From contig DATGEL010000035.1 of NCBI GenBank assembly GCA_035310145.1, positions 1 through 46,586 on the forward strand: a stretch of DNA of 46,586 nt, written 5' to 3'. The notes below the pieces were generated by a model. It was not told the DNA's origin. It saw nothing but the letters and a program-made list of their open reading frames with translations, and did no database searches. The stretch comes from Dehalococcoidia bacterium. Lineage in GTDB: Bacteria; Chloroflexota; Dehalococcoidia; CAUJGQ01. Positions 38,199 to 40,372 of the stretch are shown here, piece by piece (position 1 is the stretch's first letter; each line of letters opens with the position of its first letter). The translations under genes and the position numbers were made by a program.

Positions 38199-38837
38199 TC
38201 AACTGGTGCCGGCGAGACCGGGGCCACCGAGCGGCTGCGGTCCAGCCTCCCGCGCGATACCGAGCACGGCCCGATGCTCGGCCTCGAACACCCAGCCGAG
38301 CGCCACGACGCTGCTCACCACCGCGGCCCACAGCCAGACATCGGCGTGGCTTTTGCTCGCGAGGCCGAGGATGAAGCCGACGACGCCGAGCGCCAGGCCG
38401 AGCAGACCAAACGCTACCCCCAGCCCGGCGTAGGCGTCAGCGCCGGCAGCCATACGGTTGCGGCGCAGCTCGTCCATCGTCGCGGCAAGGCTGAGGACCG
38501 CCAGGATGACGCCGCTCACGAGCCAGGTGCTTGCGTGCGCCTTGTTCGCCAGACCGACGATGAAGCCGACTACCCCCGCCGCGAGCGCGAGCACGAACAG
38601 CAGGCTGCCGAGCCAGGCATCGACGCGCCGGGCCTGGTCGCCAGCCGCCGTGCGCAGTTCGTCGACGAGTACGGCTCCGGAGAGGACGCCGAGGATCAGC
38701 GCCGCGAGGAACCACTGTGTGGTGTGGGAATTATCTTTCAGTCCGGCGAAGAAACCGACCACGCCGAACGCCGCCGCGGCGATCGCCAGCAGGCTGCCGA
38801 GCGCCAGATCGAGGGGCATTGCAACTTTGCGTAACAT
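38199..38837 (-). CDS. Membrane protein of three tandem two-helix repeats
   Basis: The 212 residues consist of three copies of a unit of about 60. Each has LGSLL or LGVAF, then a helix ending in GVVGF(F/I)xGL, a polar loop (KDNSHTT, NKAHAST, SKSHADV), W, a second helix and an acidic end (VDELR, MDELR, EAEHR). Six membrane helices with short cytoplasmic links result. The family is not recognised. The repeated SH/AH loops and GL(A/K)(N/D/S)K pattern are odd and probably face the same side. The ATG has GGAGG seven bases upstream. It diverges from the kinase gene, with a CIRCE element and divergent promoters between. Confidence 0.75.
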   Translation of the reverse strand: MLRKVAMPLDLALGSLLAIAAAAFGVVGFFAGLKDNSHTTQWFLAALILGVLSGAVLVDELRTAAGDQARRVDAWLGSLLFVLALAAGVVGFIVGLANKAHASTWLVSGVILAVLSLAATMDELRRNRMAAGADAYAGLGVAFGLLGLALGVVGFILGLASKSHADVWLWAAVVSSVVALGWVFEAEHRAVLGIAREAGPQPLGGPGLAGTS

Positions 38838-39089
38838 AGGAGCGCCTCCAAGACGCTTCCAGAAACTGGCTCGAATCTCAGCCGGAGCCTGCGGCCCCGG
38901 CGAACCGAACCGTGGGAATCACCGGCACACAGTACGCGGTCACGCCCGCGAGCGGGAGGCGCGAGCCGCCGACCGCGGGCGAACGGTGGATGCGCGACAG
39001 AACAAACACCTTCCTCCTCCGTGGCTGCCGAGGCGGGGATGGCGCTCTCGCAGCTTCACTGGCGCCGGGTGCCGGCGCCGCTGGTCAGT

Positions 39090-39116
39090 TTAGCACTCAG
39101 AAAGATTGAGTGCTAA
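39090..39116. promoter_or_regulatory. CIRCE element (HrcA operator) between two divergent genes
   Basis: TTAGCACTC - nine bases - GAGTGCTAA is a perfect match to the CIRCE consensus, the operator of the heat-shock repressor HrcA. Promoter-like boxes overlap it on both strands: TTAGCA with TAATAA at 18 bases (plus) and TTAGCA with TAAACT at 18 bases (minus). No groES, groEL, dnaK or hrcA gene is adjacent. The nearest starts are the membrane protein at 38837 (252 bases) and the kinase at 39395 (278 bases). Confidence 0.92.
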
Positions 39117-39394
39117 TAATTGTTTACGTCGCGCGCGTTCCGACGCCAACAGCGACCGCGGTCGGTGGCACCACCGGCTTGCCAGCGGCAGCCGTAGCGG
39201 CGGAGCCAATCGCCGCGTAAGCATCTGCACGCGCGCATGCTCGCTCCAGCTTCTCCGCTTGCCATCTCTCGCTGCCGGGCTCGGCCGGCCCCGCCGCGGC
39301 GTACGGCAGGAGGCGGCGTTTGGGAGCAGGGCACGTACGGCATGCAGCGAACCTAATGATGCGCCTGCGATAAGATGAAGCCGGGAGGTGGCCA
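39117..39394 (+). other. Long 5' leader of the kinase gene
   Basis: No small gene was found in these 278 bases. GGGAGG at 39383-39388 is the ribosome binding site of the kinase. If transcription starts near the CIRCE element, the leader is unusually long; I saw no known thermosensor or riboswitch in it. Confidence 0.4.
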
Positions 39395-40372
39395 CTGCAC
39401 CAGCTCGGCGAGCGCATCGACCACTACGAGATCGAGCGGCCGCTCGGCGAAGGCGGCTTCGCCGCGACGTATCTCGCGCGCGACACGCGCAACGGGCAGC
39501 AGGTCGTGCTCAAGTGGCCCGATGAGAGCCTGCTGGGCGATCCCACGGTCTTCGAGCATTTTCGCCGCGAGATGCAGATCACGCGGGCGCTGCGCCATCC
39601 CAACATCCAGGCCGCGGTCGACGCCGGCGACAACCGTTCCGCGCCCTACCTCGTGCTCGAGTACGTCGACGGCACACCATTGCACCGCATCCTGCGCGAG
39701 CGCGGCCGCCTGCCGGTGGACGAGGCGGTCAGCATCGCACGGCAGCTCGCCGCCGGCCTGCAGTATTTGCACGAACAGCGCGTCTATCACCGTGACCTGA
39801 AGCCGGAGAACGTGATCGTCACGCCGGACGGCACGGCGCGGATCATCGATTTCGGCATCGCCTTAATGGACGGCGCCCGGCGCATGACCTGGCGCTGGCT
39901 GACCAACGCGCACGGTACGCCCGCCTACATGGCTCCAGAGCAGATCCAGGGCAAGCGCGGCGACGCCCGCACCGACATCTACGCGCTCGGCATCCTGCTC
40001 TACGAGATGTTGAAGGGCCGCCCGCCCTATGGCCGCCCCGGCGACGACCCGCTGGTGGTGATGCAGCAGCATCTTTCCGGCCAGGCGGACGCGCTGCCGC
40101 CGAGCGTGCCGCCGGGCCTGGCGGGCATCGTGGCGAAGGCGATGCGCCGCAACCCCGACGAGCGCTACCAGGACGCCGCGGCGCTGCTCGCCGATCTCGA
40201 TCGCTACCAGCAGCTCACGTCCGCCGATTTTGCCTTCGCCGAAGAGCAGGCCGCGCGTGTGCCCGACGCCGAGCGGCGCATGCTGCTGCTGGCCGGCGCC
40301 ATGGCCGTCGGCTTCGTGGCGCTGATCGCCGTCGTGATCACGGCCGTGGTCGTCGCTCAGGCGCTCGGCTGA
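39395..40372 (+). CDS. Membrane-anchored Hanks-type Ser/Thr protein kinase (probable CTG start)
   Basis: From CTG 39395 the 325-residue protein has a complete kinase domain: LGEGGFAAT (18-25 nucleotide loop), invariant Lys40 in VVLKWP, HRDLKPEN (D134), DFG (D152), TPAYMAPEQ and DIYALGILLYEMLKG. One membrane helix at about 293-323 ends the chain, with no outer sensor domain. No ATG, GTG or TTG lies between the in-frame stop at 39371 and the glycine loop; CTG 39395 has GGGAGG six bases upstream. A start at ATG 39506 would remove the nucleotide loop. It is transcribed from the CIRCE side, so heat-shock control is likely. Confidence 0.88.
   Translation: MHQLGERIDHYEIERPLGEGGFAATYLARDTRNGQQVVLKWPDESLLGDPTVFEHFRREMQITRALRHPNIQAAVDAGDNRSAPYLVLEYVDGTPLHRILRERGRLPVDEAVSIARQLAAGLQYLHEQRVYHRDLKPENVIVTPDGTARIIDFGIALMDGARRMTWRWLTNAHGTPAYMAPEQIQGKRGDARTDIYALGILLYEMLKGRPPYGRPGDDPLVVMQQHLSGQADALPPSVPPGLAGIVAKAMRRNPDERYQDAAALLADLDRYQQLTSADFAFAEEQAARVPDAERRMLLLAGAMAVGFVALIAVVITAVVVAQALG

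Follow-up and report, generated by a model that had tools for sequence, protein, structure and literature searches.

A perfect CIRCE operator between divergent kinase and membrane-protein genes in a Dehalococcoidia genome: a probable non-chaperone target of HrcA

HrcA is a heat-shock repressor, and CIRCE, its binding site, normally precedes chaperone genes (the groE and dnaK operons); the regulons of HrcA tend to be very small and to consist of such genes. What, then, would a perfect CIRCE control when it lies between a Ser/Thr protein kinase gene and a membrane-protein gene? The question is raised by the 46,586-nucleotide stretch of Dehalococcoidia DNA analysed here (the window), in which positions 39090-39116 read TTAGCACTC-AGAAAGATT-GAGTGCTAA (full sequence TTAGCACTCAGAAAGATTGAGTGCTAA) and agree with the operator of the HrcA/CIRCE regulon, TTAGCACTC-N9-GAGTGCTAA, at 18 of 18 positions, with 0 mismatches and exactly where an earlier note, made from the letters alone, had placed it. 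This is the sole match to CIRCE with three or fewer mismatches in the window, where 0.01 would be expected, and it forms a small AT-rich island (46% GC including about 15 nt per side). The note had also described the site as lacking a chaperone gene nearby, and tblastn of the window indeed found no homologue of GroEL, GroES, HrcA, GrpE, DnaK, Hsp20 or FmdB. The divergent layout that it had drawn was confirmed, with the six-helix repeat protein on the minus strand and the kinase on the plus strand (Table 1).

A chance palindrome, a terminator or an assembly error might produce such a site, and we note that the stem was flagged as terminator-like in a scan and that the genome is a 148-contig draft. 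Base composition, however, predicts only about 7e-6 perfect CIRCEs in this genome (5.32 Mb, 70% GC), and four are present. Both genes diverge from the CIRCE, an arrangement in which a terminator would be out of place, and an error of assembly is opposed by the even GC content on either side and by the match of both flanks to the sister genome G001. On these grounds all three were rejected, and we regard them as hardly credible. The match to G001 is piecewise, with the window flanks found at two separate places and the operator block without a counterpart.

Both HrcA and its customary regulon exist in this genome, given the hrcA gene and the CIRCEs at the groEL, groES, hrcA and ruc-type loci. 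There is a single hrcA (contig C77; PF01628, E 4e-41), with its own perfect CIRCE upstream, and a genome-wide scan returned four perfect sites and one with two mismatches; the earlier note had proposed just this search, which located CIRCEs at groEL1, groES-groEL2, groEL3 and a gene of the ruc/FmdB type. The last of these is degenerate (three mismatches; C1:8420-8446) and lies near rpsB, 88 nt upstream of a divergent gene for an FmdB/ruc-type zinc-ribbon protein; its reading as a chance match near rpsB was dropped, since the zinc-ribbon gene stands 88 nt downstream.

Table 1. Features of the locus, with the CIRCE-preceded loci used for comparison
Feature	Location	Strand	Remarks
CIRCE operator, perfect 9-N9-9 inverted repeat	39090..39116	no strand	0 mismatches
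Weak promoter candidate TTGGCG-N17-TAAACA	39121..39149	-	ends 4 nt before CIRCE; scores 3.1 alone
Alternative promoter candidate TAGCAC-N17-TAAACT	39087..39115	-	overlaps CIRCE; score 8.1
Possible 43-codon leader ORF, GTG start, SD GGAGGAGG	38878..39009	-	80 nt from CIRCE
212-aa six-helix membrane protein, three two-helix repeats	38199..38837	-	ATG 38837 behind TTGGAGGCGCTCCT (GGAGG)
325-aa Ser/Thr protein kinase	39395..40372	+	Pkinase E 3e-52; probable CTG start after GGGAGG
groEL1	C53		perfect CIRCE upstream
groES-groEL2	C69		perfect CIRCE upstream
hrcA-grpE-dnaK	C77		perfect CIRCE upstream
groEL3	G000:C66, L009:7119-9128		CIRCE with 2 mismatches, 355 nt upstream
FmdB/ruc-type CIRCEs in the class	L024:148, L028:551, L080:2564, L086:2573, L088:2585, L092:369, L111:2157		

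How CIRCE is employed in the class was surveyed in this genome and some 50 others of that class, which yielded 77 sites with two or fewer mismatches whose targets were named by tblastn. Directly downstream of 75 of them lie known targets, namely hrcA (29), groES (28), groEL (10), ruc/FmdB (7) and hsp20 (1), and two are orphans, the window site and G069:C102:577. The small number of orphans marks the window CIRCE as unusual in its target; the large number of sites that precede HrcA-type targets makes it very likely that it is used, and within the surveyed class the presence of a CIRCE may be taken as a strong sign of HrcA control. The second orphan (L029:577) has one mismatch and TTGACA in its spacer; a 175-aa ORF that matches no Pfam family begins about 10 nt further on. 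The CIRCEs of the FmdB/ruc type, found in seven genomes of the class, sit 19-65 nt upstream of their zinc-ribbon genes, a parallel to the repression of ruc by HrcA in M. tuberculosis, and in the sister genus a CIRCE with one mismatch lies 56 nt upstream of an hsp20 gene (L020:5216, G001:C3).

Distance is where the window site departs from this pattern. The gap between CIRCE and start codon at the 75 known targets runs from 3 to 355 nt with a median of 35, and 73 of the 75 fall within 165 nt; in the window the gap is 252 nt to the membrane protein and 278 nt to the kinase, so that the operator is close to neither start codon. The 355 nt before groEL3 are likewise unusually long and are comparable to the gaps in the window.

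These long gaps might indicate a relic, left behind when a small heat-shock gene moved away or was lost. The best candidate would be hsp20, which has a CIRCE in the sister genome (L020) and is represented here by two genes without one in the genome-wide scan, and a relic would also sit well with the weakness of the promoter candidate described below. All 18 operator positions are nevertheless intact, and each of the GroEL, DnaK and ruc loci has its own CIRCE in this genome. The earlier note had itself raised the recent departure of a groES/groEL pair; in the interval 38780-39450 no remnant of these or of HrcA, GrpE, DnaK, Hsp20 or FmdB was detected. We therefore consider a relic unlikely.

If the operator is in use, in which direction would it act? 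Elsewhere in this genome, promoters at known CIRCEs end just upstream of the operator, as in TTGACA-N17-TACACT-N7-CIRCE for hrcA and TTGCCG-N17-TACAAC-N4-CIRCE for groEL1. The earlier note had reported promoter-like boxes on both strands, a claim that we could not uphold: a sigma-70 consensus scan found no promoter boxes beside the window CIRCE, and a -35/-10 matrix trained on 75 HrcA-type promoter sites of the class gave a weak candidate on the minus strand only. The side facing the membrane protein scores 7.9, which 0.85% of random 60-mers from the genome attain, and the side facing the kinase scores -4.0, attained by 47% of them; in a wider scan with the matrix, the highest score linked to CIRCE was 8.1 for the minus strand and 2.3 for the plus strand. 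The register of TTGGCG-N17-TAAACA is that of the groEL1 promoter of the same genome (N4 before CIRCE). This suggests that transcription probably runs in a single direction, along the minus strand into the membrane-protein gene. The direction is suggested rather than established because the candidate is weak (the 10th percentile of the training sites is 10.5, which leaves it below about 90% of the training promoters), because the register-matched pair by itself reaches 3.1, because the opposite-side flanks of known CIRCEs score up to 8.6 at their 90th percentile, and because two minus-strand matches in the gap that are not linked to CIRCE score higher, at 9.4 and 9.1.

The same measurements bear on whether HrcA represses both divergent genes from a bidirectional operator, with kinase and membrane protein induced together by heat. 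The operator is palindromic and stands within a divergent layout, in which a bound repressor could hinder promoters on either side, and a CIRCE of Waddlia likewise sits between a divergent pair (PMC12038028). Yet the plus-strand side scores like random sequence, the kinase start is 278 nt away, and in the Waddlia pair just one gene responded to the stress tested (PMC12038028). We regard such dual control as unlikely. The interpretation of the earlier note thus stands in part: the perfect CIRCE, the CIRCE-preceded hrcA and the absence of a nearby chaperone or relic support action of HrcA at this site. Control of both genes is not supported, since the promoter signal faces only the membrane protein and the kinase side, with its gap of 278 nt, resembles random DNA. 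The wider suggestion that phosphorylation signalling is tied to heat shock has adjacency as its sole evidence.

In the kinase itself the catalytic motifs are intact and a single transmembrane helix lies at the C-terminus, and a domain search found neither PASTA nor any other sensor domain. Its assignment as a PASTA kinase of the PknB/Stk1 type was rejected (NF033483, 271 bits against a cut-off of 450, with 8-277 of the 563 profile positions covered). In its frame (39371-39506) no ATG, GTG or TTG occurs between the upstream stop and the conserved N-terminus, and the gene likely starts at CTG 39395 behind GGGAGG, so gene callers may truncate it to GTG 39506. A paralogue (51%) on contig C130 stands beside a PP2C-like phosphatase (identified by visual inspection of its sequence), and the sister genome contains no orthologue (best match 38%). 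The kinase is at most a putative target of the operator.

On the minus strand the possible leader ORF lies between the operator and the membrane-protein gene, and a short transcript alone, comprising this ORF or a non-coding RNA within the 250-nt leader, might be the real target. Its distance from CIRCE is inside the usual range, its SD is strong, and shuffled leaders yield a comparable ORF in 0.9% of cases. The predicted peptide, however, contains no D, E or K residues, and no convincing homologue was found in the loci compared; lacking both acidic residues and homologues, the ORF is of doubtful coding status. No known RNA element was matched in Rfam above threshold, and the membrane protein, with its own SD 40 nt beyond the ORF, would be co-transcribed anyway. 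As the whole target, a short transcript therefore seems very improbable.

The membrane protein is the likely main target of the window operator. Both its sequence and a low-confidence model (pLDDT 57) display six helices arranged as three two-helix repeats. Searches of Pfam and NCBIfam gave no family above cut-off, and its candidacy as an HdeD/DUF308 repeat protein was rejected (PF03729, 9.5 bits against a cut-off of 25). A paralogue with 55-58% identity occurs in the same genome (G000:C120:408), and no orthologue was found in G001, from the sister genus and the only other family member compared, nor any relative in GTDB species contigs or among plasmids. Matches outside its own genome were only weak among 393 genomes of the class (best E 7.7e-7); 400 genomes of the phylum provided two clear distant homologues (31-32%), in G404 and G486, and no further ones were found in the classes of those two genomes. 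No CIRCE within four mismatches was present at the paralogue or the two distant homologues in the stretches examined.

The surroundings of these relatives may be informative. The homologue in G486 (G486:C26, L138:190-1602) is divergent to pspA at a distance of 63 nt, that in G404 (G404:C23, L137:451-8315) lies 3.7 kb from dnaJ-grpE-dnaK, and the paralogue has hsp20, dnaJ and clpB about 9-11 kb away. The pspA and dnaK-cluster neighbours of the homologues hint at membrane stress, by a circumstantial association observed post hoc. One could go further and speculate that HrcA controls a divergent membrane-stress module, joining the six-helix family (linked to PspA and DnaK elsewhere) with the sensor-less kinase, such that misfolded protein, through GroE load, would directly trigger a membrane and phosphorylation response; we consider this quite unlikely.

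The reading that we lean towards, with little more than even confidence, is that of a working HrcA operator driving a leftward, heat-inducible membrane protein, the kinase being affected incidentally or not at all; the window CIRCE would then probably serve a minus-strand HrcA target that is particular to this lineage and is not a chaperone. Titration of HrcA by GroE is established in other bacteria; HrcA binding, heat induction and the function of the membrane protein are inferred here, as follows. In unstressed cells GroE-activated HrcA would bind CIRCE and block the leftward promoter. Heat or misfolded protein would occupy GroE, and HrcA would release CIRCE, allowing a transcript with a leader of about 250 nt, perhaps containing the 43-codon ORF, followed by the 212-aa protein. 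The latter would then be made alongside the GroE and DnaK chaperones and would probably be membrane-protective. The divergent kinase would be read from a separate promoter closer to its start, and would be unaffected or only incidentally affected.

If this is true, the membrane-protein target would show how a folding sensor built on GroE and HrcA can be redirected to membrane protection, and would provide a first functional handle on an unnamed family of membrane proteins. Should the target prove minor, the site would add one more lineage-specific member to the HrcA regulon. By title or abstract, in partial coverage of the literature, we found no precedent for control of a kinase or a polytopic membrane protein by CIRCE, also among papers on HrcA in Chloroflexi or Dehalococcoidia.

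Among known systems the class I regulon (groESL, hrcA-grpE-dnaK) is the nearest, as the operator is the same, hrcA is in the genome and the minus-strand candidate has the groEL1 register; the window target differs in being a membrane protein without a named family instead of a chaperone, at 252 nt as compared to a median of 35. The ruc gene (Rv0991c) of Mycobacterium tuberculosis is repressed by HrcA outside groE and dnaK (PMC7448276), and the window target would likewise lie outside both; Ruc, however, is a soluble chaperone of the zinc-ribbon kind with no sequence relationship to the membrane protein, and relatives of Ruc have CIRCEs elsewhere in the class. In Geobacter sulfurreducens a CIRCE is predicted 51 nt from rpoH (PMC545781), so that a perfect CIRCE precedes a non-chaperone gene in both cases, although the Geobacter target is the heat-shock sigma factor and is far closer to its operator. 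The wcw_0502/wcw_0503 pair of Waddlia chondrophila belongs to another phylum and encodes other proteins (including a secretion effector candidate), and CIRCE is conserved with the homologues there but not here; nevertheless, in that pair a CIRCE between divergent non-chaperone genes is occupied by HrcA, as demonstrated by ChIP-qPCR (PMC12038028), and the window CIRCE, known from sequence, occupies the same kind of position between two divergent non-chaperone genes.
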